DNA from: Pomacea canaliculata
Lineage: Eukaryota; Mollusca; Gastropoda; Architaenioglossa; Ampullariidae
Assembly: GCF_003073045.1 (NCBI RefSeq)
Contig: NC_037596.1
Coordinates: 30,698,184 to 30,762,183, forward strand
Reading direction: 5' to 3'
DNA length: 64,000 bases
Each line of letters starts with the position of its first letter. Position 1 is the stretch's first letter. The translations under genes were made by a program, and so were the position numbers. Below, piece by piece: positions 3,801 through 51,771 of the stretch. The notes beneath the pieces were generated by a model. That model was not told the DNA's origin. It ran no database searches and saw nothing but the letters and a program-made list of their open reading frames with translations.

Positions 3801-4407
3801 TAAAGAAGAGAAAAAAAACCTTAAAAACAAAATAATGAGTTTAACTAACCTTGTCTAAATTTACCCTGTAGATCATGTCTATGGTGAGATACCCTTAAGG
3901 GAAATTAAGAGTCAGCGTTCATACCAAAACCTTGAAAGCTTAAATGGTGAGGAGACTACCCCAAGTACAGGTACATATTAAAAATTGTTCCAGAGTTCAC
4001 GTGTTTGAAAACATAATAATATTATGATATTTTCATTCTATTTTGCGTGCTTTACACTTTATTAATTATCTTCCCTTTACATGTAATTAAAGGTAGACTG
4101 TTTATATTGCTGTACAAGAGATACACAAAAATATAAACTTTAAAGGAAATAAAGAAAAAAAGAGAAAGCAAAATAAAATTTTTAAATATAAATTAGCTGT
4201 TATTAATCCATCTAATCATAACCACATACCTAATTAAACTGTAATAATTTCAATAAATACTTGAATTACTTTTCTATAGTTCTTATATCGGAAACAGTAA
4301 GAAAAACACTTTAGTATAGCGTATAGCTTACATTAAAGTGACGGCTTGCGAGTGTAAATGTTTGCACTTCTCATGTGTGTGTCTCTGTGTGTACGTGTCA
4401 ATGTGTA

Positions 4408-4472
<65 letters not shown>

Positions 4473-4607
4473 CTATTATTATTAAAAATGCCAGCAAAGG
4501 AAACCGAAGATCAAGACACATACCACATTTACGAAGTTCCCAAGGAGGACGAAAACACCAGTGATCCAGTTCAGGAGGATTTCTACGAGAACAAGGGATT
4601 TTCTTGA
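849..4607 (+). CDS. Gene A (3' part): ITAM-tailed membrane receptor, transmembrane and cytoplasmic exons
   Basis: Three exons are visible: 849-992, 3872-3970 and 4495-4607 (stop TGA). All junctions are phase 1, as in the other copies. The first encodes a short acidic stalk, one membrane segment with a small-residue GAGLGAGLGL start, and a basic stop-transfer stretch (RLRK, RR). The second encodes YGEI, ten residues, then YQNL, which matches an ITAM, with an Asp three before the first Tyr. The last encodes IYEVP (YxxP, Crk/Nck-type SH2 site) and FYENK (YxN, Grb2-type site). The tail is the counterpart of exons 11 and 12 in B, C, E and F, but no counterparts of the small exons 9 and 10 were found and the sequence is divergent, so A is an older paralogue. 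The ectodomain lies off the left edge. A poly(A) signal AATAAA is at 4958-4963. ITAM signalling through Src-family and Syk-type kinases is known for such motifs; its use here is inferred. Confidence 0.75.
993..3871. other. Long intron of gene A
   Basis: About 2.9 kb of AT-rich sequence between the transmembrane and ITAM exons. It holds a short (AC)n tract near 1498-1522 and purine-rich stretches near 2560-2680. No open exon in the right phase was found. A candidate small exon near 3604-3629 has splice-like ends but gives a stop when joined in frame. Confidence 0.5.
4412..4470. repeat. (GT)n microsatellite
   Basis: About 30 GT units lie just upstream of the acceptor of the last exon of gene A. 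The tract could serve as an unusual polypyrimidine-like region for that acceptor, since no better pyrimidine tract is visible. Confidence 0.95.
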
Positions 4608-7819: not shown

Positions 7820-10800
7820 ATGTCAAAGCTGCTATCATTGAGTTGTTTACTATTTTTCAGAGCAACATACGGTAGGAATTCTTTGTTTAATTAGCAGTGG
7901 GTAATCTATATTGACTGAGTTCTTTATTTGCCGGGGCTCGGTCAGGTGGCGCAACGGTTAGCGCTTGTCATCAGTAAGGTCCCGGTTGGCTGTCCAGGGT
8001 TTAGCTCTCGTCTCGGGCACGCTGTTTTTTTCTACATATGGCTGTTTACATGGCTGGCTGCGTTTTCCTGACATGGCCTTAGTTGCTGGCTTGGCGCAAA
8101 ACACCAAATATTGCGTTGTGTATCTTCGGTTACATAACCCATTCAAATTCCTCTTGTACAATTACTTCCAAGGGTTGATGCATAATCTATCGTGTCTACT
8201 GTAATGTTTCGTAGCGTCTACACCATGTTTTATCCAAACAGAACACAATCCATAACTCATAATAGTCAAGACATGTTGAATAATAATAACAGACCTAGTA
8301 TATTTTAGACATTTTTAGCTTTATGGATACATTACAACCATTCATAAAACCTAACATCATCGCGATGGCGTATACCTTGTATATTTTATTAAGCACATCG
8401 TTACACCATGTGGCTGACTCTCGCCATGTTAACCAGTCAAATCAGTCTGTGGTGATAGGTTTTCTGTCGGTGTGGCTTTGCGAGTTCTTCCTGGTTTCGT
8501 GTGTCAGAGCTTTGCCGTGATGTGTAACATTTGTGTCACTTAATAGTCTTTTAAATCGGGGAATATACTTTCAGCATTTAAACATAACTTATGATAAGAC
8601 ACAAATCCGGTTATCACCAAGTCATTGTTATTTTCACTTTAACATCATGTCAACGCTAATTGGATTGACTTGTTTACTATTTATCAGAGCCACATACTGT
8701 AGGGCAGCGGTTCTCAACCTTTTACTTGTGACGCCCCCACTCAGGCCTGACGAGAGGGGGGGACAGGGGGGTCTGGTGTACCCGCGCCCGCGGCTGTCAA
8801 GGGGGCCCGGCCTTGGTCAGTGGATTTTTTTTCTTCTCCTTTTCTTTTTCTTTTAAAGAAAGGTCTAAGGACAGAACACCCAAGCATTACACATGCAGAA
8901 GTTGAGTTTGAGTGTAGATATTGAGATTCGAATTGTAAACATACATTATATACTGGGAAAATAATTTACGATTACAAGTACAAGGGGCCCTGAGAGGTCG
9001 TCTGTCCCGGGGCCCGGGCTGGCTCTCGGCGGCCCTGACCCCACTGACGAACAAAGGTACGTCCGCCCCCCCCCCCCCTTAGCCAGCTATAGGTCGGTGT
9101 AGGGGAAGAGGGGGGCTTAGATAACCTAGAACACCGCGTCGAGGAAATCAATGCAATTCAACAACGGAAGAACAAAGTTCGTATCTGCAGGAAGTATAAC
9201 TGTTAATGAAATTTTACTAAAGCAAATTCTGCGGTGCTAATAAATATTATTTTATTGGACACTCTCTTTGATTAATGAGAAGGTTGAACCTGCTTGCTGT
9301 TGCATAGAGAAGCGAACCTGTGTGCGATGTTCGTACCCACTGCTATTCGCAGCTCAGCCTCTGCGTCCACACGATTTCTGTATTTCGACTTCAGTGCTGC
9401 CAATGCTGAAAATCCTTGCTCACACATATACGAAGTTGAAAATGGCAGAAGAACTTTCATTGCTTTCTCAGAAAGGAGAGGATATTCACCGTTGATGCTA
9501 ATCCAGAATTTTGGCACTGGTGTTGTTTGGAAGACCATTTTCAGGGATTGGTCACTCGAAAGGTCGATGACCTGCTCTTCTTCTTGCGTGGACAATCCGC
9601 TTGTGCTAGGATCAGCGCATCTGCGAGGGCGAAAGGGTATGAATGATGGACGTTTCCTGAATGCGTGCCTTTTAGATGTTTAAAAAAAAGAGAAAGAGAG
9701 GTGTGACTGGAGAGGGAAAGGGGAGTCAGCGATGAGAGATTGGGGAAAGAGAGGGCAAAAGGCTAGAGGAGGGAGATTGGAGGCTTAATTGTTGAGAGGG
9801 GGATTGTGTTTTGAGTTTTGGAAGTGAGAAGTCACTGCATGCCGAGACGGTGTACTTGAATAGGGAGAAGAGATTTGGAGTTTGAGCTCCCTCACCACTC
9901 GGTTACACAATGTAAACTAATGTACCTAATACCGGTTTAAGAAACTTTTATAAAAATGACCACCTTCGCGCATAGGCATGTCGCAACCTCACAGGGGGGC
10001 GAGCCCCACAGGTTGATAACCGCTGCTGTAGGGATTTTTTAAAAATCCTATTCGTTTATGTGTGTGTTTCAAAAATAGGTGAGTGGATTTTAAGCGTCGA
10101 TGTGTGCGTGTGTCGTGTCTGCATGTAGATGTGTGCGTATGTAAGTATGAGGAAGTCAGAAAGGGGAGCTCAGCCATGCGTTCGTTTTTTGTGCTTGCGT
10201 GCTTGCTAGTCCACTCACATAGTTAAGTAAAAAGATGATTCGTGTATCTGACTCATTCTTTTTGCCTGCTTATGGCTTCAAAGGACAACTTCTAGTACGT
10301 CTTGTCTGGCTTAGGGTTTTTGCGTTCTGACTTGCAATATATTTTGTTGTGTTTTTATGCTGAAGTTAGTTTTTCCCCACGTTATACCTGTCGGCTTCTG
10401 TGTACCGTGATATCCTTATTGTTTTGATAGTGGTACGATTACATCAGCTATGTCATTCAGAGCCAGGCTGAAGAAATGTTTAGCACCCCTTTCATAAAAT
10501 TTAAAATTGTGACTGCCACCCAACAGTTTCATGGGCTTTATACGGCCCACGGGCCGGACGTTCCTCACCACCCATGTGTCCGTTCACTTCTGTACAAATA
10601 GACAGGTCTGGTATTTTTTTCAGGCCGATCCAATACACAATAGCTGGCTTTCGTCCTGAAGCAATTGAGTGTGTGGGTAAAAATTGTTTACTCGCACCCT
10701 AAAACCCCACTACATGTACTTGGTTTCTCATATAGTCTTTTTACTGCACGACATCAACGGGCGAAAACTTTCCAAAATAAAAGTTCTGCTCAGGGCCTAG

Positions 10801-13800
10801 AGCCTACATGTTTTCGACCGGGCAGACGCATCGACTGCAGTTTCCTGGGAGAGAAAGACGAGTGCCAAAAAAGTGTGTCAAGTGAGCTTATCACAATGAA
10901 TATTCATTCCAGAAGGCCTTATTCTTCATTCTGAATTAGTAAAGGCTCGGATTAACGATGACCGCAATCTTACCCTCCAAAATTTCAACAGCCCAAAAGG
11001 TGCGAATTTGACAAAAAGAAGAAACATACCTAAATAGCTAAACAAGCGTATTTCTTTGTGACTAATTGACGTCCTTGAATAATAATAAGAAAAATAAGCA
11101 TAAAGCAGCTTCCAGTACAAAATTTGAGCATTTGGATACAGATGAAGGCAGCTAAGGAGAACGGGATCAAAGACCAAAGCTTAAGTTATGGTTGAAGCAA
11201 TCAGATGAAACGTTAAAAGACATATCAACTACTCAAGATATATACACAACAAAAGAGTTCAATAATCAAAGATAAATGGCCAGTTTCTTATAGTAATCAC
11301 AGCTGTAGCAAAGCCATCGATTAAACGGAACGAACAAGGAAGATTTTTACTTCTCTTTGCCGAAAAATCTTGGAAAAAAAAGTACAAAGAATGAATGAAA
11401 TTACTAGTTATACTTCTTTTAAGAGCATTAGGACAATAGTGCATCGCTCAGCATCGTATGTGATATGATTATTATCATCTGCATTGAATTAGGTACGAAG
11501 GGTACAAGAAAAGTTTATTATACCCTCTCTTTACTTTGTGTTGTTTCAGTTGACTCACAAAAACTGTGTGATGCCAGTACTTACCTGGAGGTAAAAGAGG
11601 GTCGAGACAACACGTTGGTCTGTACAGGGCTGACAGCACAACCAAACGTCTTCTGGCTGTGGAGATCACAGCTATTATCTACTTGTGATTCGACAATCTG
11701 CGTCAGCGACAGGTACCTTCAACTCTTCCATATCAGCAGAGCTTCACCGACATCAAGTAACATCACAGTCAATGTCACCGCCTTCCCCAGTTTAGATAAT
11801 TTAGCTACAACTAACCTGTCCTGCCAGCAGACGTCAAGGGTGACTTGTCAGCTGGATGTAGTATGTAAGTATAGCTTGTTTGTTTGAGATCACATGTAAT
11901 CATCAACACATGTCACAACTTTTTACTTTAGATTTGCCATTTAAGTGCTCTTTTCATTCCAACATAACACACTGATACAAACTACAGCACGGTAGACACC
12001 AATTTATTTCTATTTAAAGCTGTCTCACAAGGAATGTATGGATTACTGTTGTAAGTCATCGCATAAAATATCTGATCGAATCTGAGCAGTGTTCATGGGG
12101 AAGTGCTATATCATTATTATTATAAACACACAACTGTTTCTTTAGCCTATCTCTAGTTTATGTTTGCCCCCCTTTCCACTATTCTCACATTCTCTTCTTC
12201 TTTCTCGATGTGCGTGTGTGTGTTGGGTAAGATAATCGTTAGGTGGGTCTGTTTGTGCGTGTGTGTGTGTGTGCGTATAGGTGCGTGGGAGTGCAAACGT
12301 GTGAGCAGTTTCATACTTTCTCCGAACCCCGTACATGTAATTATTTACAGACCCTGCTGAAGATCCCAAGTGTCAAATTGAGTTTAGTGGAGACACATGG
12401 GAGGTAACTGGTTGGTGCAATGTTTCCAAGGCCCGGTCAAGGAGAGACAGATATTTGTGTTATGTATACCAGACATCACATGTAAGCCTTTATTACAAAT
12501 CGTTTTTAATTGTTTATTATATGCTTTAATTTTCCCCCAAAATTAATCAAGACTATTCTTGACAAAAATTACTTTATGCCTTTACTAAATTTATACAAAA
12601 TTATCTTATTTTCCCACAGCCGACAATTGCTGTGGAATTGCTGCAGTACCAAAAGGTTATGGCGCTGTTACCCTCTATACTGATTTATTCGCTCGAAAAG
12701 TAGATGCTCATCAATTCTATGTGAATATTTACACCAGACTATTTAATTTGACACTTTTTCGTGATGCTACTTTTGAGAATACAGTTAGTCAAGGTATTCA
12801 AGTATTAAATTGTTTCGCACTTGCACCATTGTGCTATTGCTTATTGATCATTCCTAACACAATTTTAGTGCATCTAAGAGTTGTATTTTTTCTTAAATGT
12901 AATACCCTATTGATGAAAATTTAATCATCCAAGCAGATTATATGTATGTTATCATTTATAATGTGAGTCTATATTTTGTGTAACTCTTCTTTAGTGAAAG
13001 AAGAGACACGAATTTTTACGTGTGTATTACTGTATAAGTATACTGTTTAAGCCGTTTGTGTGTCAACAGCAGTCTACTTCCTTGGTGGGAAATTTCACGA
13101 TGTCTGTGAACCCTATTTTAGGAACTAATTATTCTAATGGTGACTGTCAAATTAAGATTGCTCTTCCTGCAGAAGGGAAATACAATTACAGTGTCATCAT
13201 TATACCTGGTGAGGTAACGGTGCTACCTTCCTTTCTTGGAAATAACGAAATACGTGAGTTTAGTACTTTATTTAGATATTGTTTCTTTCAATTATAACTG
13301 TTTTTATTATTTGATACATGGATTGTATAAATCTTTCTAAGCTTTTAGACGTTTTTTGCTGTGATAACTTATAGTACCATTGTCTCAATCTAAGACTTTT
13401 GAACAGATTATTTGCATTCAACACGGTACCGACAAATTAATTTAGGATTCTATCTATATTATTATTTATTAATATAAAAGCAAGGCAAACCTTATATCAC
13501 ATTTTTACAATTTTTTTTACATAGACAATAATAGACAATAACACACGCCTGGTAAGCATGTGAAACACATGTTAAAATATCCGCATCTTTTGGATCTGAC
13601 AATAATCCCCCCCCGGCCCCAACAATGTACACCATGATAATATATTTTAACTTTAGGTCGTCCATCTGAGCCTCCTCAACACAACTGCCCGCTATATGTA
13701 ACAGAGGGTGAGGACATAGACTGTCTTTGTTCCACCGATAACCTGGGACTTCCATCTGGTTCTGTTGCCTGGAGAGGCACCGACTCTTTGAGGTTTGCGA

Positions 13801-16800
13801 TCGACAAAGTAAACAGGACATACAGTGGGACAAATAATACTTGTATCTTGATGTGGAACAAAACTGTTGTACAAAGTACACTGTACACAGTAACAGTAAA
13901 CTGTAAGGTTCTATTGTAAAACATTAAACATTTTCTCTCTTTAGCCTTGCTTGGGATGCCAGTGTTATTTATTTCTCAGCTCTGTCTCGGATCTGCTTCA
14001 TATTTTATGCGATGTTATAGAAATATTACACCTTCTGCTCTTTGTTTCTCCTGTCTCATTGAAAAGTGCGTCTTGTTGTCATGAACGTTTCTCTTTTTCA
14101 TTTTTTATTTTTTTCAATATTCACAAAGCTGTTTTCTTCTGCTTTACAAACATATTTTAATATCTTTAAACATTTTGGAAATAAATTGACCACACTTATA
14201 AGAGAAAAATCGTTTTGACAAAGTTTTCTTTATCTTTTAAACGAAGAGTTTGTCTTATTAGAAATAATGTAATTAGTGATATTTCGACAAGAGTGTAGTT
14301 ATGAAAGTATTTAATAGGCACTTCAGAGAAAGCATGTTCCATGTTTAATCTTAAAAGTTTGCTTTGCAAATATAATATATAGCTGGTGAAACTTCCGCGA
14401 AGTTTAAAAGTACTCAGTCTTTCAATGAGCAAAGTTATTTATAAAGTAATTTTATTTTATATCATCTGCGGACGCCAGACTCATTAATTCCACCATCCAT
14501 TTCGCCCTTTTTATGCGTTTTCGTGTTTTTGTACCTTTATTAATCTCATTAATATATTAAGTTTGGTTATGTACTTTCATATTATTTTTAAGGTGTTTGC
14601 TTGTTCTTAATAAAAACCACTATGACAAAGGGCTTATTCAGCCAACAATTGCAGTATATTTCAGAAAAAAAACAAATACTTATAAACATTTTGTACGTGA
14701 AATTAGAAAGCTAAAGTGGACTTAAATAGACATTAATTAAGCATCCAACTGACATTCGTATGAACTCAAAGATCTTATACAAATTGTAGTATATTAAAAT
14801 GCTTGTCCATTATTTCATCGTCACGAGTAAATGTTTCGTGTGCTGTTTACAGATGCATCCCGAGTGCTCAGTTTTAAGATTGATAACAAAGCAGACGACA
14901 TTGTAAATGTCAGTGACAACGCAAACGTCTCAACTGTTTGTCAAGCTGAAGGAAGACCGTTGCCGACATTACGTTTGTTTACCAGGAGCAGCGACAACCA
15001 AGATGTTGAACTGACTGCAGTTATTAATGGCCTGGAACTTCAATATACTATGTCAGTGAAGTGTGGAACAACAGCAACTTACTCTTGTAAATCAGAAAAT
15101 GAAGTCTCTGAAGATCAAAGGCGCATTCTACTTACAGTTTCTTGTGAGTATCCTTATTGTTCTTTATCCATACTTTCAGGAGTACAACGAAACATATAAT
15201 GGGCACTCTTGAGTTCATATGTAGTTAAAATCGTTGCTTTTACATCGACTTGTAAATGTTTGTTCCTTAATTTTACTTCAAATCGTTTTTAACTATTTCG
15301 TTTTTATTTTTTTATTGTTATGAAATATGATAATTATGACAGGATTACTGCTTTTTTAATTGGTCTTCTAATACGTTGTCTCTAGAAGCAGTTAAGTCGT
15401 CGCCATATTGTTTACATCTGAAAATCGTAACCTATAATCAGAAAGCAGTGACATAACACAAATTTGGCGCCTGTTTAGAAAACTGAGCAAGCAGTTGACA
15501 ACGACACATTTAAGGCTAAACTATTTTCTGACAGCACATAAATATTTTCTTCTCACTGTTCAATGAAAGCACGCGTATGAGGATGATTTAACTATTAAAT
15601 AGAAATCATTTAGCAAATATTTAACTTTTCTCATTAAGCGCTGAAGTCTATAGAAAACTAATATTAAAAAAAGTATTTATGTAACTTACAGGTGCTCCAA
15701 GGCAAACAACTCAAGACATTTATTCAGCGACGTTCAACGGTGGGGAGGCGAGACTGGAGTTTAAAATCATTGCTTACCCACCGCCTGATGACCTGTCTGT
15801 ATTTTACATAGGATCGTCACTGAATGATAACACCTTAAGAAAGGTGGAATATAAGAATACTTTGAAGTTTGAGTGTACCTCTGACGGCGTGTACAGGTAT
15901 ATGGTTACATGCACAGTGACTCTCCTCAATGAAACGATATTCAGTACCGGAGTTTACCATGCTGTTTTCAGCAATAGTCTTGGAAATATTTCACTGACAT
16001 TTGAGATCAAGGAACAGTTACACACAACAGGTTAGTTATTCATACTTACAGGTGCACATAACTGTTATTTATTTAGTGATATATATATATGTATAACTCT
16101 GTATATCTATGAAAGAAATTAATGTAAACGTTTAAGCGTGAACCGTACTCTACATTTATCTATTGGGAATACATTTTTCTTCAACTCTGCTCTCAAATAA
16201 GTTTAATTTTTGACAGGACAATCAAAGCCAGAAGTAGCCGGGCAGGTCGCTGGTGGAGTTATCGGTGCTGTCGTTGCCATCGTGCTGACTGCCAGTATTG
16301 CCATCTTTGTTATTAGAAGAAAAAGTAAGTGTTTTGTCTTTAAGACATCAGTAAACACAAGAGGCAGATATATTATTTAGTTTATGAATAATAAGTGGTA
16401 AAATCTAAGGAAATGATATAAAATTACAAAGCATCTTTAGAAACGTTTTAATATTTATATTACTCAATTACTAATAGTTGTATATTTAATTTTTTTTTCA
16501 GGAATGAGAAATGACAGAGGCTCACGGTTTGTATGGATCTCTGTAGAACGAAATACAGTAATATACAGTAAAACCATGTAGAGATATTTAGATGAAACCC
16601 TTAAAGAAAACAGTTTCTGATTTTAATTAAATTCTCTTGTCATAAGAAATAAAAAATATGTGGAGTTACCAAATTGTAAATTGTAATGCTCCATATTTCT
16701 CCTTTTTAGGACGACGAACCCTGTGATGACTTCAACAACGGACCCTCAGAATAGTAGGTTTACATCATACAAATGAATTTGTAAAATTTTCATTTAAAAT

Positions 16801-17653
16801 GTTATAGTGTTTGAACAAAAGTTTACTTTTGCTTCCATTGATGAATGAATTAAAATACACATGGACGTTTTCAAGACTACTTTCTCATTAAAGAACCAAA
16901 TAAAACAAATTCAGATGTACTGATTCAGATGTACTTATACGAATTGATGCAGAGAAACATTTCTTAGTTGATAAGGAATGGAGGATATAATAAAATACAT
17001 GATTTTCATTTTCTTTCCTCGAAAGGTTTAGAAACATTATATAGCCAGCTACAAAGGGAAGATGTTAACAGTCCTTCTGTTTACCAATCACTAGGACATC
17101 AGCAGACATCAAGCAACATTACAAATCATGAAGGTTACTATGCATCATTAGCAAGTTTTTCTGGTTTATTAATATTACGTATATTGTATGTGCATATACA
17201 GCAGGATTTATTAATACTTTTTTAAAACTGTGTATTGAGTATGGGTTAAGCCTGATGATTACCGATGTATACTGCTTTATGACCCATCACCTGAAATACC
17301 TGATACAGGAATCGTAGTTTTGATAGTAGTTATAGTGTACATATTGTAACATGCAATTACAGTAGGCCGAAATTGAGTAGTATTTTTTTGCTTTGTTTTA
17401 CTTTCCTTTTTTTCATTTAATGTAATTCTTATGCTGCCGCACAAATGCCACAAAATGCCATTTGAAGAGTTTGTTTGATTTCATATCAACACAATAAACT
17501 AAGGGATTAATTCACTGAGTTGATTAACATACTGAAGTTTGCTTTTCAGATGAAGGAAATTCACACGTATATGAAGTTCCGATTGATTTGCAAGAAAATA
17601 CGAGAGAAACTCATCACAAAGAGACAATCTACCAAAACAACACACTTTTCTAA
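7820..17653 (+). CDS. Gene B: five-Ig-domain type I membrane receptor with ITAM tail
   Basis: Exons: 7820-7871 (or 8647-8698), 11550-11864, 12351-12481, 13070-13253, 13657-13902, 14853-15143, 15692-16030, 16217-16324, 16502-16526, 16710-16753, 17026-17133, 17550-17653 (TAA). Joined, they are open for 648 residues. The order is signal peptide; Ig1 (exon 2); Ig2 split over exons 3 and 4; Ig3 (exon 5); Ig4 (exon 6, a classic Cys/YSCKSEN I-set pattern); Ig5 (exon 7, without the usual core cysteines); one membrane helix (exon 8) ending RRK; linker exons 9 and 10; exon 11 with YSQL-x10-YQSL, an ITAM; exon 12 with VYEVP and IYQNN. The second Tyr context SVYQSL also fits an ITIM. Many NxS/T sequons fit an extracellular glycoprotein. 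The exon 9 donor (GTTTGT) is weak but is the only one that keeps phase. The role as a recognition receptor signalling through SH2 kinases is inferred; the ligand is unknown. Confidence 0.85.
7931..8108 (+). repeat. tRNA-derived SINE, family 1, copy a
   Basis: A box A-like GTGGCGCAACGGTTAGC is followed by a box B-like region and a body shared with copies at 20655-20830 and 55262-55447. The copies end in a characteristic (G)CGTAAAACACC-like 3' block. This copy lies between the two signal exons of gene B. Confidence 0.8.
8647..8698 (+). other. Second signal-peptide exon (1b) of gene B
   Basis: An ATG opens a 52-nt exon encoding MSTLIGLTCLLFIRATY, almost the same as the first exon of gene C. It ends in phase 1, as exon 1a does. 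The base before the donor is T instead of the G seen in B exon 1a, C and F, and the donor GTAGGG directly abuts a transposon. It is either an alternative first exon with its own duplicated promoter or a decaying one; the sequence alone does not decide. Confidence 0.65.
8742..9037. mobile_element. Nested hAT-type MITE inside the 8.7-kb hAT
   Basis: A GC-rich 296-bp segment with ends CAGGCCTGACGAGAG and CTCTCGGCGGCCCTG, which are imperfect inverted repeats. It is flanked by 8-bp near-duplicates CCCCCACT (8734-8741) and ACCCCACT (9038-9045). It therefore inserted into the outer hAT after that element arrived. Confidence 0.65.
9272..9595 (-). pseudogene. hAT transposase C-terminal fragment
   Basis: A 107-residue open frame with the hAT C-terminal dimerisation pattern, including Trp, YPLL, the LLPF.TSY.CE.GFS block, RNR and a terminal SH. 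Only the last part of a normal transposase of several hundred residues remains. It belongs to the 8705-10025 element and is not a host gene. Confidence 0.85.
10500..10562. repeat. Possible hAT MITE end fragment
   Basis: Homology with gene C intron 1 stops near 10517. The following sequence has a GGCCCACGGGCCGG block typical of hAT MITE subterminal regions, ending near CCTCACCACC. No second end or target duplication was seen. Confidence 0.3.
13590..13656. other. Short conserved intron tail before exon 5 of gene B
   Basis: The block TGTACACCATGATAATATATTTT upstream of the exon 5 acceptor recurs before exon 5 of gene C (around 26781-26803). It shows that exons and introns were duplicated together. 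Confidence 0.5.
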
Positions 17654-21628: not shown

Positions 21629-32223
<10,595 letters not shown>

Positions 32224-34406: not shown

Positions 34407-35405
34407 ATGCATTTATTTGGATTGGTTTGTTTACTATTTATCAGAGCCACATACAGTAAGCCCCTCCGCCTTCTGCTGTTGACAGCACGGCTAGCTGATT
34501 GAATATCTAAGGAAACAAAAAAATTCTCCGGTGGCTTTTTATCGTTTCAGAATTCAATTCATACTTTGATGGTTAATGGGGCATTGGTGAAAATTAAACT
34601 CGTGACTGGTGACGAGAGTAACCCGATTGGAAACATTATTCGCATTGTTGCAATAGCTTTATCACTTGAGGTAAGGGAGGTAGCCAATACCTAAATTGTA
34701 CAATTACGCTAGCGAGAGCTGCCTCCCTTTAATGTCAAGCACCCTAGAGAAACTTATTACAGTTTGAACTTTTAACATGTTAAAACGGCAGACTTCAACA
34801 GTACAGTCACTGAGAGTCGATAAGCTTTTGATATTTCGCACATTAGGTAGGTTAGCAAAAAAAATTTTATAAAAAGCATCATAGAAGGTGGAGTGGATGT
34901 TGTCGTTTCTTACAACACTGTTTTCCACTGCAAAAGGTAAATTAGGTAATCAAAGCAATTTTCGCAAATTCTGGTAAAGTTTGGTTTCAGACGAAAGAAG
35001 AAAAGGAACGATGGGATAACGATCGTGTTTTCATAAAGCGTAGTTACAACCTTTATTAATATTGCCTTGTCTAGTTTCATTTCGTAATTGTGTCTCTGAC
35101 AGGTTCTCCTAGCAAAACTACGAACGACTCCTATTTCATAACGTTTGTGGATGACGAAGCTAGTTTTACTTTTAAGATGAGCGCTGACCCTCCGCCCAAG
35201 TTAGAGGTATCAGATCAAAACAAAAATCATATGAAATAATGGTGAAACATAATAAAAAGTAAGTCTCATATCTTGCAGAAACATTTACTTTATTATCCAC
35301 TTTCCATTTTGATTAAACACTGTGAATAGGAAAATTCATATCCATAATCCTTCCCCTCCCCTAATACATACATATCTCTTGTTTCTACGAAAAATGAGAA
35401 AATAT
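34407..35405 (+). pseudogene. Relic D1 of the receptor family (signal exon plus truncated exon 7)
   Basis: The signal exon 34407-34455 is open (MHLFGLVCLLFIRATY), phase 1, with a good donor GTAAGC. The following sequence to about 34690 matches gene C intron 1. Sequence from about 35035 matches gene C intron 6, so exons 2-6 are gone. A partial exon 7 of the gene C type (35103-about 35210) keeps the start of the domain and then jumps into sequence matching gene C intron 7 (near 30258). No transmembrane or tail exons follow. It is a remnant made by internal deletions, although its first exon still looks usable. Confidence 0.8.
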
Positions 35406-36353
35406 ATTATATATATAACAAAAGCAAAGTACATGTGTACACAGTGCTAGTTTAATCCAACTGTTTTAAATGCGAAGATGTCAAGATTACTTCCATTAAC
35501 TGTGATTGTTGTTTTGCATTTTGTCACTATCTAAATATGGTATTTATTCGTGCTACCCTTATGCTAGATACAAGACACATAAAATGTTAATAACAATAAT
35601 CGACAGACAATAAATCAAAGCACTTTAACCTTTGTTGAAATATAAATGAAAAGTGTTATGGAATAAGAGAGAAAAGTACTGTGTATATATGGGCTTTTAT
35701 AAAGTCTGTACGGGATGTGGTGCAAAATTTAACATAAACCCGTGAGTTAGTCATTGTGTCTGCTACATAACAATTTTGTAATTTTATTTGTCACATGTGC
35801 GCATAATTACACAAATATTTCTAGAAATATACAAAAATTAGTTGTTATAAACTTCTGTGAAAAGACTAGGAAATCTTCAGACTGGATCAATCAGTGCTTA
35901 CTATTTAAAATGTGTTTCTGATTCTATCTAATAAAAATAATTTTTAGTAAAATTGCTGACTTCTTTCAGTTTTTAGCAACACAGAACAGATGTCACAGAT
36001 AATGTGTCTGGCAAATTCCAGGAATTTTAAAATTTAAGCCCAATATCTAAATATTATTAAATACATAAAAGTGTGCATGTCTAATCTTATCATAATGTAT
36101 GCATGGAAGTGAGTAGAGAAGGGATAAAATACTGTGTATCTGTATATTCTATGTGTATATAAATATATATCCTACTGCTGTCTTGATTTTAAAGGTACAG
36201 CAAGTACTAAGAATCAGGAGCGTTAGTTATATACGAAAGCGAACAAGTCTATCATGCTGAAGAAGCAAATGAAAGAGAGTAACTTAGAGAAAAACTCATT
36301 AGCAGTGATTTCTTGTTTTTTTTTACTCCAGCAAACATCGGCTCCAGCGGTCG
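35406..36353. other. Intergenic or intronic region, nothing recognised
   Basis: AT-rich sequence with a short (TA)n tract near 35405-35417. It may belong to the 3' part of the minus-strand gene G, but no exon was recognised. Confidence 0.4.
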
Positions 36354-38311: not shown

Positions 38312-38896
38312 CTGAAATAAAAAAGATCGACTTGTTCATTCAAATGTAGCTGGTTTTTTTTTAAAATCGTACTTCAAAAGATAACAGAGCTGTTTATTGT
38401 TATCTTCTTATATAAGAGTGTTGCTCTGAAAATGTGTAGTGTCCATGTTGAAGCTTCTGTTAACAATTTTGAACAATTTTATGTGTATAATTGTATTCTA
38501 CAGTTTTACAGCTTAAACATTGTATAAATATATTATAATTATTTGTTGTAGTGTAATAGAAATATGGATCACGTTTAAGTAAATAGTATAATAGCAATAG
38601 TAACCTTATTTAAAGTAAGTTAAGCGTAACTTCTTACATAACTAAGGATGAAATTCAGTCTACTCGTACTGAGCAGCTAAACTGATTTTTGCAAGTTCCA
38701 CAAACAAAGCCTATTTAAACAATTTTTATCTGTGTAACTGATTATTACAATTCAGCATGTAAAAGCTAAGATTTCATTTTAAAAATAAAAATATATTTAG
38801 TAATTCCGCTAAGGTTTGCAATATTTGAATCATTTGTATGTATAATAAACAGTCCAAAGGAATTTACTTTAATTAATTTTTGAACATTGAACTCAC

Positions 38897-40250
38897 TGTA
38901 GCGGAGAGGTTCACAACTCTGTCCGGCTGGCGAGCAGTCCACACTACAGGTTAATTTTCCTCCCTCATACTTAGCCCTTTCTCCCAAGAAGTTGAGCTTG
39001 TAAACTTTAACATCAGAAACATTCTGTATACAGCTACAGTTCATTGCTCCAACAGGTTCCATATCACATGTTTGAGTGGAGGGTACTGCGCATAAACGAT
39101 CAGGTGTTCCGCCATTGATTTCAAAAACGAAGAAAACAACAGTGTATGCACAGATCGATGATGGGACTGAGCAGTTGACACCCACTATTGAACCTTCTTG
39201 AAGAGATGGACAACTTAGTGATATGGTTTGACCCGTGGCATCTGTAACACAACAATATTTTTGTTATACAAGTTCGTGTGTTTGTGCAGAGACACCATTG
39301 TTATCGTTATTATACGACTTCATACAGTAAACACATAGCAAGAGGATGGCTTAGAGTATAAGTTAATGTAAAATAGAGAACATAATTCTACGTTTAGGAC
39401 TTTAACATAGGGTGCTGAAAACTGAGAAAGTACAAACTGTATAAGATAGTTAAGGAAAAATTGTTTTATCCAGGCCAACAGTCGGAGCTCTATTCAACTA
39501 ACGTATAGAAACTAATATTAAGAATTGACAAACTTAAGCCCAAATTTAACATATACAAACAATAATACAACATATATCTGGTTTAGAAAGTGCATGTCTC
39601 ACTCCCTTATGTTTCGTTTGTCAAGTTCCACTCTACTTCAATCAGTGATGTACGGAAAAATTACACCAAACGTACTACGGCCGCGTTCTTTTCCCTCCTT
39701 CGATAAGAGCAAACAAGTTTGTGTTATCCGACACACCTAACTTGTGCAATAATAAAGAACCAAGACACAACACATCTTCCTCACTATAAACGTCCTGAGT
39801 CACCTGCTGCTTGCCCTGGTAGGTCAAATTTTCTTATCCCATACCCTTCTCACTGTCTATAGAGTAAACTGCCTCCTACAGTATCCACGCACTGGGCACA
39901 ACCATTACACATTTTTTAACTTTATACCATTTCACCAATTGACCTATTTCAAAATCAGGATTTATACTGTCCAATAGTCTCATACCTCATCTCCAGTTGT
40001 TAGTTAACTCTTTGATAAAAACTATACCAAATTCTTTTCTGAGGTTTCTTATCCAGTGTCAGTAAGTTTAGTACCAGGATGTGTAACGTGCGCACATCCA
40101 CACACAATAAACCAGAAAGATTTAATAACTTGTTTGTCGGTAACACCGATAAGCGGAATAATATTAACATATACAAAAGTAGAAATACATAAAAAATACA
40201 TTACCTGAAATAAATTTCATGAAAATCAAAAGTGGAATTAGTGGTGTCAT
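38897..40250 (-). CDS. Gene G: single-Ig membrane or secreted protein (signal and Ig exons)
   Basis: Exon 1 (40250-40205) encodes a signal peptide (MTPLIPLLIFMKFIS) and ends in phase 1 at GTAATG. In-frame ATGs exist up to 40364, but only the one at 40250 puts the hydrophobic run at the N terminus. Exon 2 (39241-38897, 345 nt, phase 1-1, donor GTGAGT) encodes one cysteine-rich Ig-like domain of about 115 residues with more than ten Cys and NxS/T sequons. A Ser/Thr stalk (38311-38240) and a membrane segment (37008-36916) may follow. The domain does not closely match Ig1 to Ig5 of the tandem family. The gene runs opposite to its neighbours and separates relics D1 and D2. A partner or regulator role for the tandem receptors is conceivable but purely inferred. 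Confidence 0.65.
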
Positions 40251-41866: not shown

Positions 41867-43597
41867 ATGTCAACGTTAATCGGACTGATTTGTGTACTGT
41901 GTATTAGAGCAACACATGATAGGATGTCTGCATATACATGTACTTACTTAAGTTTACATAAATTTAAGGGTATTTTCTATCAGGTGTCTGGGTACAAATG
42001 AGTAGGTTAAAAGTGAGCACCCGTGTAGAAGCATTCATGTGTGCGCATGCGTGTATGCGTGCACATGCTTGCGTGCTCTATAATAGTCGGAGGAGGGCCG
42101 GCAGGTTTAGCACAAACGTTAATGGGTTTTAGTTGAGGTATGTGATCAGGGCCGTGCTTAGGGGCAGGCGGGCGAGGCATCTGCCTAGGGCCCCGCGCTT
42201 TTGATTGATATGGTAACTAGGCATATGGAAGTATAGTCAGCCGTATCACATTCTCGCTGGACGCGCTTGGAGACAGAAGGCTGCTGGACACCGAGGATTT
42301 ATCGCGCATGAACGTTCGTGCATTGAGCTATTGCTGGATTTATGTGCCACTAGGGGGGAGGGGGAGGGGGCAAGTTGGAACTGAGTGAAGAGGTAGGTAT
42401 AAGGTAAGTTACTGAGGTGTGGCCAGTCTGTGAATTGAGCGGATTGGGCCCCTCCCCTGGCTTTGCAACCTGTAAGCGAGAGGTCGAGTCCTTTATTTCC
42501 TAGTTACTGAAACTTTCTTTTCCCGTTTCTCCACCACCAAAAAAATAAAAAAGAAAAAAAAAAGATAGAAATAACTACTACGTTAGTCTAACTGAGCATT
42601 AAACACTTAAGAAAACAACGGAAACTGAGTAAAGCTCAAAATAGAGAAAGCATTAGTTTTTTATTTTAAAAAATATTCAATTCAATTCAGGAGGACGTTG
42701 AGAAAACTACAAACAACTCCTATTTCACAACGTTTGTGGATGGCGAAGTTAGTTTGACATTTTAAATGAATGCTTACCCTCCGCCCAAGTTGCTAGTGGT
42801 AGTTTACAACGGATCCGGGAATAATTCCATGTCACCAACAGTCGAACATGAGAACACTGTGAGGTCTACATGTTTATCTGACACATCATACATTTATATG
42901 ATTACCTGTATGGTGACTACTAAACCAAACAATCTACGACACTGGGCCATACACCGTTACTTTATGGTCTGTGAAACATTTCATTTGCGCTTGAAGTCAA
43001 AGTAAAAGAACAGACGACAACACAGGCATTAAAAATAGCAGGTAGGGGCTGAAGCATTATTGTTGACATGACACAAACGTACGTGTCCCTCTACACACAC
43101 AGGCTTGAACCTGAGCTTATTCATATCTGTCACTCTAACATTCATTGGACGGGGAACTCAAACTTTACATTGTGTGTCAGATCAAAATGAAAATCATATG
43201 AAATAATGGGGAAACATAATAAACAGTAAATTTCTTATCTTGCGAAACGTTTTTAACTAATTCTCCACTTTTCATTGTGATCAAACAGTCTGATTTGCAG
43301 AATTCATAACCATAATCTTCGCTCTTCCCTTTTACATACATGTCTCTTTTTTCTAAGAAAATGAGAAAATATATTGTTATGAAGGTGTTGAGGCTTTTCT
43401 TTAGTAAATTGAGAAATCTTCTTAAAATGTAACTTTAAAGTATACAACTGATAATTTGTACAAGTACACGGTTACTTGTACAGTAACTCTTTGCAATAAA
43501 ATAACATTCTGTGCCGAAGTTTATGATACTGTTTTCAGTAATGGTCTGTAAAATATTTCACTTAAATTTGAGATCAAAGAACGTTGACTCAACAAGT
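41867..43597 (+). pseudogene. Relic D2 of the receptor family (signal exon plus two exon 7 remnants)
   Basis: The signal exon 41867-41918 encodes MSTLIGLICVLCIRATH, closest to gene F, but the donor GT is changed to AT. A remnant of the gene C type exon 7 follows at about 42691-43039 with an in-frame stop (TTTTAA) and frame damage, then sequence like gene C intron 7. A second, gene F type exon 7 remnant covers about 43455-43597 (the TATGATACTGTTTTCAGTAATGG-like part onward). The first remnant starts with GGAGGACGTTGAGA, which in gene F lies in intron 1 (near 54379), so a deletion fused intron 1 to exon 7 and removed exons 2-6. No transmembrane or tail exons remain. Confidence 0.8.
42147..42480 (+). 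mobile_element. Possible hAT-like element fragment in relic D2
   Basis: It begins CAGGGCCGTGCTTAGGGGCA and continues with a CCTAGGGCCCC block, a start often seen in hAT-type elements. The other end and target duplications were not identified. Confidence 0.4.
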
Positions 43598-43604
43598 CAA
43601 TATC

Positions 43605-43800
43605 TGACGGTGGGAATAACTCGTGTGAGCTTAATGTGTAATGCACATTTGAGTTATCTCCCTTATCAAAAGTACGGAATAACTTAGGAATTTTATGAAA
43701 TAGTCTGTTTTTTTTTAAAGGAAAAAGTATAAACTAGCATAAATTTACACACTCACGTCCTCTCCTTAGCACAGCGTCTTACTTCAAATTTTATTAGGAG
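43605..43800 (+). repeat. Dispersed repeat family X, copy 3
   Basis: GGGAATAACTCGTGTGAGCTTAA, then GAGTTATCTCCCTTATCAAA, then an A/T tract and an ACACTCACGTCCTCTCC-like block, in the same order as the copies near 44.2 and 62.6 kb. Confidence 0.6.
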
Positions 43801-44199
43801 TGATGAACTCGTCGTAGGTGGTTGTACTTTAAAGGAGAACATAAATATTTATAGTAACATACCTAATTCTCCTCCATAAAGTTCTATTTAAAGACTTTTA
43901 AAAAATCAGATCAAACAAATATATCTCTAAACTATTGACACTATGTTTTAGGAAATGCTGTTATTATGATGTATTATAATGTTAACATGTGATGAAGACA
44001 TTCCAAATGCTGACAACACTATAAGATAAAGCGTCGAAGAATTTACATGGCAGACGATAAATGAGCTAGTACACTCAATAAACGACAAATTATTGTTTTG
44101 AGAATAGAAACCAATTGAAATTAGCATTTAATCAAACTGATCTTTTATTTTGACATTTTCTGTTTACCACTAGATCCTATAGGGAGTAATGCACTCAAA
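43801..44199. other. Intergenic sequence between relic D2 and gene E
   Basis: AT-rich sequence with no gene or repeat recognised. Confidence 0.4.
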
Positions 44200-44700
44200 G
44201 TCCTCATGTCATTGTAACGGTGCCAATACTCTGAACGGTCTGTTGGACACCTATTTGGGTTAACTCCCTTTATCTATGTCTAATGTAGCTTTATGTGCAG
44301 AAAAAGGGATTTTTTGGTGTGTTCTTAAGAAAAAAAATCCCTTCCCCCCACGCGAACATATGCTTAATTTACGCACTCACACTCTCCTCTCAGCACGAAT
44401 GCAATCGTACACGAATAAAATCAACAACAGCAATTTATCATGCAGATATAAAACCATGCAAAGCTCTAATTTTTTTACAATCTGTCAAGGCTATCGGGTG
44501 ACTTCGCAAGGTAGTCGGTGTTCTAAATTTCGCTAAGCCATGCTTAGAAAGCCGTGACGAAGCCAAGAAGGAATAAGAGCTAAATATGCTTCCTAACTAG
44601 CACTTACATACAGGCTACCCTTTGGTTAGTAGTGTATTGGTAGCTATGTGAGAGAAAGAGAAGGATATGTGTGCTTTATGTAATTATAAAAGATATCAAA
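44200..44700 (+). repeat. Upstream module of gene E (repeat family X copy 4 plus flank), duplicated at 62.6-63.0 kb
   Basis: From the GTTAACTCCCTTTATC block to the TGTAATTATAAAAGATATCAAA block, the sequence aligns in order with about 62620-62995. Shared parts include CACTCACACTCTCCTC/CACTCATACTCTCCTC, AATAAAATCAACA, AAGAAGGAATA and ACATACAGGCT. It is part of a larger duplicated unit rather than a short repeat alone. Confidence 0.65.
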
Positions 44701-44711
44701 CGAACTATTCT

Positions 44712-44734
44712 GTGTGTGTGTGTGTGTGTGTGTT
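44712..44734. repeat. (GT)n microsatellite
   Basis: About eleven GT units upstream of gene E. Confidence 0.9.
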
Positions 44735-45431
44735 CGTGTGAACTAAGAAATTCAAACCGTGCTTGCCGTGTTAGAAAGATCGGTGCAGAGTGGAACCCAT
44801 AGTTTTCTTTTACTGGATTACTGACCTTTTGACAGGGCATTTCAATGTAAATGGAAAATAAGTTTCAATGAATCTAGGTTGTGATCTTTACTGCACGGTT
44901 GTTGCTGTCTGCCTCTCTTTTCTCTCTCTCTCTCTCACTAAATAACCGATAGACAAGCATACCTATGAGCTCTCTCACACACACAATGCCTCATTTAAAA
45001 TTCCCATTGCTCACGAAAACTTAATAAAGTTTCTGCTAGACAGAGATACACACTACACACAACTTTGATGTACTAAGTATACTTTGTATGGTTCTCACGC
45101 ACTGCTCGTTTGAGGTGTACAGATTAATAATACAGATACAGATCGAATTTATGAACTGCATAGTGTGTCATTACAGCCTTAATTCGGGATATGCCTAGCC
45201 CTATAAGTGACATTTTACCTTTCTGTTATCTTTTTCTAAAGTTTATAGGCTTTCAATTTTTTGGTTTTGTTTTGTCAAATATAAAGGCTTGATATGGCGG
45301 TTTTTCTACTTGTATTTGTATTTAACAGATGCTATTTATTTGTACCCATAATAGGAACTCTTTCAGTTGATATTCCTTCCTTGTTTCAGTCGAGGCTATT
45401 CAGGAACGTACGTTTACAAATCCAGTAAGCC

Positions 45432-48400
45432 ATGTTGAGAATGTTTCTGTTGGTATTCATTTGGTTGTTGCAACGATCTTACGGTAAATAACTAAGTTGT
45501 ATTTTTAGTGATACATCTATGTTTGAAAGTGCGTAGTGATTGTGTGTATTTGTTTCTACATGTTTGTTGCATACTTTAAAATACTTTCGTTTATTTTCAG
45601 GAGACCTACCATCTCTCTGCAGTGATGGCTACTTGGAAGTGATTAACGGGACGGAGACAAAATTTATTTGCTCCAATTTTTTAGGAACTCAAACTATTAG
45701 ATGGTACTTTAAGGGAAATACAATTGCCACATGTAGCCCATTACAGTCTCAGAATGAACAAAACTGTATTGTAACTTATCTACCAGTAGTGTTCATTGTT
45801 AGCAGGACATCGCCAACAACAAGTGTTGTGACAGTTAAACCTATTTTTAAAGATAAACAGTCCAGCTTATCGTGTGAGATCGCCGACACAAAAGCCATCA
45901 GCAACTGTCCTGTAGATTTAACATGTGGGTATTTTCTAGTAAAGATATTGTATTATATATTTTAAATATGTCCAAAGATAAGTATTTTACTCTAATATTA
46001 CTTCCAGTAGCTTCTTTTTAACCCACTGTGTGTTTAATGTATCCTTGACACTGCCCACTATATCTTTTTTCTCTTTGAAGCAAAATATTTAAAACTTACA
46101 CTGAGAAATAAGCATGGTTTAATTAAACTGCGTACTTCCCAAATAACAGATATTAGTTATGTGTTTATAGAGATTAATTTCTTTTTTCTCGCTAATGAAC
46201 TGGTAATCGCCACTCATTGCTTAATTTTCATAATAATCGCTTACAATTTAGACCTAAAAACATGAGTTTCTTATCTACACTTCTGAAAATGGTGTTAAGA
46301 AGGCCTTGAGAAATAATTTGCGTATAAAAGTGACTTTGTATCAATCATACAATTAGAGGAAGCCATCGTTTTGTGCTTTAAAAGGATGTATCATATCTGT
46401 TTCTAGATGATGAGCTTTTAAAGGTCTTTATTTTAATGTAGTATTAATAATTATAAAATGTCATATCGTAGGCTAAACATTCACCACACAAGAGTTACAC
46501 TTCTCAATAAAGTCATCAATCATTTGCAGATTCTGCAACTGTCTCCTCCTGTACTGTCGAGTTCAGTGGCAGCACGTGGACAGTTTCAAGCCAGTGCAAT
46601 GTTACAAAAGTTTACTCGTCACTAGCCAGATACAGGTGTGATCTTTACCAAAGAATACAGGTAAGTCTTCATATCATGTCATCAGCCTCAGTTTGATAAT
46701 ACAATCGATATATATATATATAACTTCTAGGCGCAATCTTGTGATTACTGATTCTCCCAGTGATGCTCAAAATGATTTTTAAGAGCACTAACTGCATTTT
46801 GTTTCATTCATTAGAATGATCCAGAAGAAAGACGTGTTAATAGTTCGCCAATGTCAACATCAAGTATCACCGAGGCTGACTATTTCTCTGGTTATTGTAG
46901 CATGACCAGCTTTCTACCTTCTGACGGGACATACAACTACAGAGTGATGTTGATACCAGGCTATGTCAATGTTACTCCTCCTTTCAACGGAAATAACTTT
47001 ATAAGTAAGGACTAGAAAGATTTATTATATAAGTAAAAGCTGACTTTAGTGAAAAAAATGCAAATTTGTCAAAGTATGGACACAACAGGTGTGGACTACT
47101 TTAAGTTTCCTTTATATCATTTCTAAACTGAAGATGAGAAATTACAGTCTGTTTCAATTTTGTAATTAAGATCGTCCTACCTGTTGGAATAAATGTGGGA
47201 TTACTTCCTCGAAGCAATCTTTATTTAAGCAGTTCAAGCAGGTGAGATGACTGTAACATTTTATATTCTTTCAGGAACTCCAAAAGGTTATTTATCACAC
47301 AACTGCCCCACATCTGTATCTGAATATGGAAACCTACAGTGTGCATGTTCAGTCACAGACAGAGGAAGTCCTCTAGGAGAAATTCGCTGGCAAAAGTCAT
47401 CCACAAATGAACTGTCGCTGAATGGTGTTCTAAGAGCTCAGAATGGAAACATTTTGACATGTGTGCTTACGTGGAATAGAACAGAAATACAATTTCTACA
47501 TTACACCATCATCGTAACATGTGAGTCTTCTACCTGGAGAGATGCCACTCTGACACAGTGACGAATTATTTTACTCTTCTTCTAGTTCTGTCTTCCTCTG
47601 GGTCTCTGGGTATGCAAATTAAAAATGAGCATCCATGATATAGTTTTGAAATTTAAACTACATAGTCATGTTCGAGTAGGATAATGACTGATGGTTAAGT
47701 TGAGTTTTCTGTAATGTAAATATAACTGTTACTTTTTTTATTTACAAGACTCTAGTAGTGAAATGTAACATTTTAAAGCTCTTTCTACCTAGCTTTTATT
47801 GCTTTTATATTTACAGACCCACCCAGCGACATACAGTTTAAGGTAAACGACATAGAAACTGTAAATGCCACAGTAAAGGAAAATTCCACAGTGAGGATGG
47901 GGTGCCTGGCGGATGGCAGACCCACCCCAAGCATGCGTTTGAATCTCCATCAACAAAAACACTGTCCTGAACACCAGTCCTCGTGGAAATGTCACTGTTA
48001 ATGATATCAGAGCGACAGTCACTTATGACATGGAGTCAGTGCAGTGCCAAGACACAGGAGAGTATGAATGTGAAGTGGACACTGGTCCTGGACAGACTCA
48101 CAAGCGAATCTCATTATTTGTAATGTGTAAGTAATACAAACTTCATCGGCTGAAAGAGATATTCAAGGCTAAACTTTTTTATGCACAAGGTTTATATTTT
48201 TCATACAAGGAATTCAGTTATTATTTTTACTGTTCAAATCAGTGTTTCTTCTCAATGTTTAGTGAAATCAGCATTTGTTCTAACTTCATCCGTTTTTCTT
48301 TTAAAATAGTTAATGAGCATGTGTGTGGATGTTTATAACTATTCCCTATTAAGCACCGACATTTGTCGAAACTGAACTTTGAAAAATATTTATGTAACTT

Positions 48401-51400: not shown

Positions 51401-51771
51401 ATTTCTTTATTGTCGACAAAAATATCTCATATAGAATACTTAGTTTTAGTTAGCAGTAATTGTATTAATTTTATCATAAATATACAATAACCTAAAACTG
51501 CGCATTGTTTTGCTTTGTATTTTCTTTAGTCTAGTTTTGTTTTTATTTTTGTTTCCGCATAAATGTAATAAACTTTTTTAATTGTCATCTTTGATTTTTA
51601 CATCAACATTTTGATGAGATTACCGCACTGGGTTCATTAAAAGAAGTTTGTCTTTCAGATGAAGGAAAGTCACAAGTGTATGAAGTCCCGACTGATCGGC
51701 ATGAAAACACAAGAGGAAGACGACAAAAGAGACAGTCTATCAGAACAGCACATTTTCTTAGTGGTTCTTTT
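45432..51771 (+). pseudogene. Gene E: divergent receptor copy with two frameshifts
   Basis: Exons: 45432-45483, 45601-45924, 46530-46660, 46815-47004, 47275-47520, 47817-48126, 48405-48743, 48934-49041, 49214-49238, 49443-49483, 50860-50967, 51659-51771. The order and phases match B, C and F. The signal peptide (MLRMFLLVFIWLLQ) and Ig1 to Ig4 are strongly divergent but keep the cysteine framework; exon 7 and the membrane and tail exons are close to B and C. Exon 6 is 310 nt, not a multiple of three: one extra base near 47943 shifts the frame and ends the protein in Ig4. In exon 12 one A is missing from an A-run near 51727-51730, replacing the YxN end with an unrelated extension to 51921. The ITAM exon itself is intact (LYDKL-x10-YQTL), as is VYEVP. 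It is either a young pseudogene, a truncated secreted form, or a gene with assembly errors. Confidence 0.8.
49625..50765. repeat. GC-richer interspersed insertion in gene E tail intron, unclassified
   Basis: Compared with the same intron of B and C, about 1.1 kb of less AT-rich sequence is inserted between sequence near 49620 and sequence resuming near 50765. It has no long coding frame of known type. A TGTGTC start, a TATATATTGA block and late AATAAC-like motifs would suit a solo LTR of an old retroelement, but no terminal duplication could be settled, so the class stays open. Confidence 0.4.

Follow-up and report, generated by a model that had tools for sequence, protein, structure and literature searches.

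A conserved probable ITAM exon in a clustered family of predicted Ig-type receptor genes of the snail Pomacea canaliculata

Tyrosine-based signaling motifs are recognized by their spacing: an ITAM reads YxxL/I-x(6-12)-YxxL/I, an ITIM I/V/L/SxYxxI/V/L, and an ITSM TxYxxV/I. The vertebrate paired receptors (CEACAM, FCRL, KIR, and Siglec) join related ectodomains to opposing ITAM or ITIM/ITSM tails and are encoded by clustered genes. Corkscrew is the fly SHP-2. Several invertebrate systems come close to the locus analyzed here. The oyster Crassostrea gigas has CgIgIT2, a receptor that combines a classic ITAM with a single membrane span and five Ig domains outside the cell; it is expressed mainly in haemolymph and is linked to ERK phosphorylation (PMC11999971). 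In Drosophila, the ITAM tail of Draper is read by the kinase Shark and its ITIM isoform by the phosphatase Corkscrew (PMC4503800, PMC8092387). The Botryllus FcoRs and Hydractinia Alr are clustered Ig-type receptors with activating- and inhibitory-type tyrosine motifs, and at oligomorphic FcoR loci splicing can exchange the motif (PMC12065747). Syk-type kinases occur in vertebrates and some invertebrates, and Shark and Hydra HTK16 carry ankyrin repeats between their SH2 domains (PMC9486129).

We analyzed a stretch of 64,000 nucleotides from P. canaliculata (the window; contig C7, positions 30698184 to 30762183) and searched a genome of 440,159,624 bases in 24 contigs. An earlier note on this DNA had claimed that a single symmetric exon encodes an ITAM with exactly ten residues between its two motifs in all of five copies. 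When the sequence was read again, all five exons and their YxxI/L-x10-YxxL motifs were found where the note had placed them, at 3872-3970, 17026-17133, 31383-31487, 50860-50967, and 59973-60068 (genes A, B, C, D, and E, respectively). Each exon has AG on its 5' side and GT on its 3' side, and the symmetry holds as well, since all five are in phase 1-1 with lengths divisible by 3 (99, 108, 105, 108, and 96 bases). Their phase-1 translations are YGEIPLREIKSQRSYQNL, YSQLQREDVNSPSVYQSL, YDHLQRENINSPSVYQAL, YDKLQRGDVNSPSVYQTL, and YDHLQRGDINNPSVYQTL, with L or I at both +3 positions in every one. The count of five copies is right for the exons, but D is probably a pseudogene and A is without an Ig-type exon in the sequence analyzed. 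The acidic residue that the note had placed two or three positions before the first tyrosine is present at -3/-2 in B, C, D, and E and, through a codon split by the inferred splice junction (an aspartate, assigned by eye), in A; it is not general in the farther paralogues described below, where position -3 is mostly T, A, or S in an alignment that lacks one of the 18 and misplaces another.

A six-frame scan of the window for YxxL/I-x(6-12)-YxxL/I gave 31 matches, and the exact x10 spacing gave 8 in 127,996 codon positions, 5 of which are the exons of genes A to E. Because single matches are this common, one ITAM-like match is weak evidence, and conservation among homologous exons is what counts. 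A chance origin of the motif was ruled out by the homologous exons together with 19 further paralogues that keep it.

Gene models were obtained by comparing the window with itself and then fitting splice sites. Genes B, C, and E gave clean models of 12 exons, each a single open frame of about 650 residues (649, 652, and 645 residues, respectively, or 648 for B and 651 for C after one acceptor in each was moved 3 bases by eye to reach an AG, which gave AG/GT borders). The exon order in all three is signal peptide, five Ig-like units with unit 2 split across two exons, membrane, two short juxtamembrane exons, ITAM, and last exon; the membrane exon has 108 bases and is hydrophobic, with basic residues at its end. 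In gene B, on the plus strand like the other four genes, the signal-peptide exon is modeled at 8647-8698, and self-comparison and the gene model place Ig-like unit 1 at 11550-11864, the first half of unit 2 at 12351-12481 (phase 1-0), and unit 3 at 13657-13902; the second half of unit 2 lies at 13070-13253 (phase 0-1), its start being the acceptor shifted 3 bases by eye. Unit 4 follows at 14853-15143 (gene model and Pfam, with I-set just below the Pfam cut-off), and unit 5, the query of our family search, at 15692-16030 (gene model, genome search, and profile). The modeled tail runs from a membrane-spanning exon ending in RRK (16217-16324) through juxtamembrane exons of 25 bases (16502-16526, phase 1-2) and 44 bases (16710-16753, phase 2-1) to the ITAM exon (YSQL-x10-YQSL, from sequence and exon scan) and a modeled last exon, where VYEVP and IYQN sites precede the stop (17550-17653). 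A second signal-peptide-like sequence, at 7820-7876 upstream of gene B, resembles its first exon by eye.

Gene C (21629-32223) and gene E (53840-60830) follow the same model, with last exons at 32120-32223 and 60733-60830. The last exon carries the tyrosine sites YEVP and YQN in B and YDIP and YQN in C, while E is without the first tyrosine and keeps YQN. The models of B, C, and E thus hold a membrane span and an ITAM in one chain, and under the predicted topology the part encoded by the ITAM exon would face the cytoplasm, in the tail of a receptor at the cell surface. This tail position after the membrane exon and the conservation among paralogues both support reading the exon as an ITAM, as the earlier note had done. 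B, C, and E resemble CgIgIT2 in being molluscan and in their membrane span and ITAM, and they may also match it in their ectodomain, where five Ig-like units are called by exon pattern.

The other two genes are less complete. Within the window, gene A consists only of a membrane-spanning exon (849-992, phase 1-1, borders set by eye), the ITAM exon (YGEI-x10-YQNL, read from the sequence), and a last exon that carries YEVP and YENK sites before its stop (4495-4607, borders set by eye). Its membrane exon is unlike the other membrane exons and has other genome matches only at E values of 0.07 and 0.13, and its last exon matches nothing else in the genome, even at E up to 10. For the ITAM exon, the exon scan favored a shorter donor (at 3946), which leaves motif and phase unaffected. 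We found no Ig-type exon in the 2.2 kb that separates gene A from the gene upstream. A small exon near 1833 was dropped from gene A, as by eye its phases do not fit. Gene D (41867-51755) has the exon set of B, C, and E in broken form, with an intact ITAM exon. It carries three lesions (a changed donor in the first exon, a frameshift in Ig unit 4, and a frameshift in an A-run of the last exon) and is therefore probably a pseudogene, although an assembly error may explain the two indels. Degenerate fragments at 35075-35450 and 42670-43684 resemble Ig unit 5 and the intron downstream of it and look like relics of further copies.

The Ig assignment of the ectodomain draws on its fourth and fifth units. 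Unit 4 of E matched Pfam Ig_3 (2.6e-6) and I-set (5.9e-5), both just below the cut-offs, and among solved structures NCAM2 (2.1e-4). Among solved structures, a profile built from 23 unit-5 sequences matched titin (1.4e-5) and LRIG1 (5.7e-5); taken one at a time, two unit-5 sequences had no Pfam match. Units 1 to 3 are called Ig-like by exon pattern alone, without database support. The membrane-segment model of ErbB1 scored 0.0031 against gene B, below its cut-off. An EGF-type ectodomain, as in Draper, was rejected, because scans of two proteins at E up to 1 turned up no EGF domain.

Searching the genome with Ig unit 5 of gene B gave 124 matches at E up to 1, of which 123 are on C7. Counted by eye, 102 of them reach E <=0.001, all on C7 (0.8 to 30.9 Mb), and these are matches, some of them fragments, as distinct from proven genes. 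The ITAM exon of D as a query returned five matches. Four of these lie within the window, and the other is a further, sixth copy 51 kb past it, at C7:30813649; gene A was not reached by this query. Among three distant paralogues read over 6 kb downstream, one (L061) is followed by YDALQMKDVGMQSQYEEI, and the other two (L060 and L062) showed no convincing ITAM exon over that distance. The L061 exon, used in turn as a query, gave 18 matches including itself, all at C7 27.15 to 28.20 Mb. These farther exons lie 2.5 to 3.6 Mb from the window and form a diverged subfamily, and when read, all 18 encode Y-x-x-L, ten residues, and Y-x-x-I/L/V. An ITAM exon lies 1.3 to 5.1 kb downstream, on the same strand, of 16 of the 18 Ig5-like matches in that interval, with paired ITAM exons behind 2 of the 16. 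Two genes there have apparent double ITAM exons (C7:28181327 and 28181697; C7:27310827 and 27311459), with a stop soon after the second motif.

In all, ITAM exons are present at 22 loci on contig C7, 6 near the window and 16 farther away. The oyster receptor differs in this respect: CgIgIT2 is described as a single named receptor, whereas the snail has 22 ITAM loci, and some of the neighboring genes bear ITIM/ITSM-like tails. The earlier note had said beforehand that both tyrosines should be conserved in further paralogues and species, and among the paralogues we found both of them, at the same ten-residue spacing, in 19 of 19 new exons and so in all 24 copies. Both +3 positions are L or I in 21 copies, and V follows the second tyrosine in the other 3. 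We found a phase 1-1 exon for 21 of the 24 copies; of the remaining three, L070 and L074 each stand second in an exon pair and run into a stop soon after the motif. The 18 farther copies were retrieved with a query that itself carries the motif and are known from ITAM and Ig exons, not as whole gene models, and because paralogues were found by similarity, copies that have lost the motif may be missed. For about 80 of the 102 Ig5-like matches, most of them loci known from matches alone, the two ITAM-exon queries found no ITAM exon.

The constant spacing bears on what the two sites do. YxxL/I also matches the sorting signal YxxPhi, and the tail is long enough for several such signals, so the two sites could be independent YxxPhi motifs that bind AP-2 and direct endocytosis, with no ITAM. 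We regard this as unlikely: sorting signals need no fixed spacing, yet exactly ten residues separate the sites in 24 of 24 copies across two diverged subfamilies, and the extra tail tyrosines (YxxP and YxN) suit SH2 docking, not sorting.

If the exon is an ITAM, its motif should be distinguished from one kept by kinship alone, in recent copies or copies homogenized by gene conversion, with no selection. Divergence differs strongly among exons of one gene pair, so that the genes look like mosaics: dS is 0.06 in Ig unit 3 of B and C and 0.28 in Ig unit 5 of B and D (82% identical), while Ig unit 1 of D is saturated relative to B. This pattern suggests exon exchange or gene conversion among genes B to E and, together with identical cores in several of the 18 farther copies, speaks for kinship. 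The earlier note had pointed to gene A as divergent yet motif keeping, and indeed the ITAM exons of A and B are only 19% identical and retain both motifs and the spacing; B and L061 likewise differ at 11 of 18 core positions, as counted by eye. Changes were counted on a tree built from 24 different cores of 30 codons, themselves ascertained by similarity. Of the 30 columns, only those of the two tyrosines are free of amino acid changes, their codons having changed synonymously only (2 and 1 changes), whereas none of the 26 columns outside the motif is without an amino acid change. The four motif columns have 0, 1, 0, and 3 amino acid changes, and the remaining 26 average 5.8 (one-sided P = 0.002). 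Kinship without selection is, on these data, decidedly improbable.

Pairwise dN/dS of the ITAM exon ranges from 0.19 to 0.93 and is below 1 in 10 of 10 pairs, the two highest values (0.88 and 0.93) both coming from pairs with E; in the last exon it ranges from 0.18 to 1.11 over six pairs, five of them below 1 and the sixth at 1.11. In this codon-based comparison, of the kind that the earlier note had proposed, the ITAM exon as a whole is under no tighter constraint than the Ig exons, and the constraint lies in the motif. A dN/dS of 2.21 in Ig unit 3 of B and C was not used, because synonymous changes there are very few.

The genome also encodes candidate readers of such a motif. A gene on contig C14 matched Pfam SH2, Ank, Ank, and SH2 in four of five pieces (L055; the fifth, of 93 amino acids, had no match), with kinase exons 1.8 to 3.7 kb beyond on the same strand. 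By its predicted domain order, SH2-ankyrin-SH2-tyrosine kinase, it is a Shark-type kinase, and the best matches of its C-terminal SH2 exon among solved structures are ZAP-70 (2.4e-8) and Syk (1.8e-7). A gene on contig C2 matched Pfam SH2, SH2, and Y_phosphatase in three pieces (L052), with PTPN11 as the best solved match, and its predicted SH2-SH2-tyrosine phosphatase order makes it SHP-2. No separate Syk (an SH2-SH2-kinase lacking ankyrin) was recognized among 46 SH2 exon matches, some of whose loci were read; because the search runs exon by exon, one may still exist. Two more pairs of closely placed SH2 domains resemble PLC-gamma by eye (SH2-SH2-SH3). A cluster of SH2 and tyrosine kinase exons at C2:9.12-9.18 Mb appears to hold several copies of one kinase gene.

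These genes also bear on whether both tyrosines matter. The Botryllus FcoRs use hemITAMs (PMC12065747), and the snail last exon bears extra single sites, so a single-site receptor of the hemITAM or adaptor type, in which one tyrosine matters and the pair is incidental, would have precedent. We give this very little credence, since neither tyrosine varies in any of the 24 copies and two SH2 domains are encoded by the candidate kinase gene. On balance, we consider it likely that the exon is a genuine ITAM in the tail of single-pass Ig-type receptors that would dock Shark and signal activation. In such a mechanism, a ligand bound to the Ig-like ectodomain would cluster the receptors, a Src-family kinase would phosphorylate both ITAM tyrosines, and the phosphorylated pair would be bridged by a kinase with tandem SH2 domains (the snail's own Shark-type kinase is the most likely one), which would send an activation signal, probably phagocytic or inflammatory and in haemocytes. 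The further tail tyrosines (YxxP and YxN) could dock adaptors.

Genes with what looks like the opposite, inhibitory kind of tail lie next to the ITAM genes. A0 (L047) is just upstream of the window and the L045 gene 11 kb downstream of it, and their Ig unit 5 is 47% and 45% identical to that of B, respectively. Their tails contain VYAIV, then DVYADV or DVYSAV, then EYENCGF or EYEIFGF, and end in LNYTTV...TEYAEI or LNYTIV...TVYAEI followed by the stop. A third last exon of this type, with LLYTTV...TEYATI, is found at C7:30894722 (L049). These sequences (L047 1124-3706, L045 1391-4230, and L049 1456-1647) fit an ITIM followed by an ITSM. As A0 has reading-frame breaks in Ig unit 5 and in the ITIM/ITSM-type last exon, L045 and L049 are the better examples. 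The L046 gene has, within 7 kb, only the first ITIM-side exon. Within the window, ITIM-type exons had no convincing match in genes B to E. A weak ITIM-like match at C7:6892581 (E 1.6) was read and judged spurious.

The order across A0 and A is Ig unit 5, a first membrane exon, the ITIM/ITSM exons, 2.2 kb, a second membrane exon, the ITAM exon, and the last exon. The phases of these cassettes are compatible by eye, and one ectodomain could possibly be spliced to either an inhibitory or an activating tail. Behind its ITIM tail, L045 has a frame-broken relic of an ITAM-type last exon. No activating cassette was found in the 7 kb behind the ITIM exon of L049 (L059), which counts against a general two-cassette layout.

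Neighbors with ITIM- and ITSM-like tails, related to the ITAM genes in Ig unit 5, hint at paired receptors. By analogy with Draper-I/Shark and Draper-II/Corkscrew, the ITAM members would recruit Shark and activate, and the ITIM members would recruit SHP-2 and restrain. We offer as a tentative idea, with somewhat less than an even chance of being right, that C7 holds an invertebrate analogue of paired receptors, in which ITAM tails are read by Shark and ITIM plus ITSM tails by SHP-2, with A0/A perhaps spliced either way. The snail shares with the Draper system a Shark-type and an SHP-2 gene, but Draper has an EMI/EGF-like ectodomain and is one gene with alternative tails. Like the FcoR and Alr receptors, the snail Ig-type receptors are clustered and have both activating- and inhibitory-type motifs; unlike them, FcoRs have hemITAMs and a sushi domain and lie in an allorecognition locus. 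The likeness to vertebrate paired receptors is one of layout, the snail family being related to them no further than the Ig fold as compared here, and we take convergence as its default reading.

The exon is ordinary as an ITAM, and what looks new is the clustered arrangement at family scale with mixed tails. Among the literature matches listed, which cover the field in part and are no proof of novelty, there is no report of an expanded gastropod family of this kind, and a review on the immunity of apple snails (PMC9178244) has, in its main text, 0 mentions of ITAM, IgSF, and tyrosine and 2 of immunoglobulin. If our reading is correct, a mollusc would possess an enlarged set of Ig-type receptors whose tyrosine switches are in part activating and in part inhibitory, along with genes for the kinase and phosphatase that match them. 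The ITAM/ITIM logic of chordates, flies, cnidarians, and one oyster receptor would then reach an expanded molluscan family, providing a system for asking how snail haemocytes separate self from non-self. With the ten-residue spacing constant in 24 copies, one could test directly how spacing is read by the tandem SH2 domains of Shark-type kinases.

The window also contains minus-strand open frames outside the receptor exons. By eye, one at 22455-23165 resembles a LINE-type reverse transcriptase and one at 9275-9679 the C terminus of a hAT-type transposase. A third, at 38769-39263, is cysteine rich, spans 165 codons, and is possibly an exon of another surface protein.
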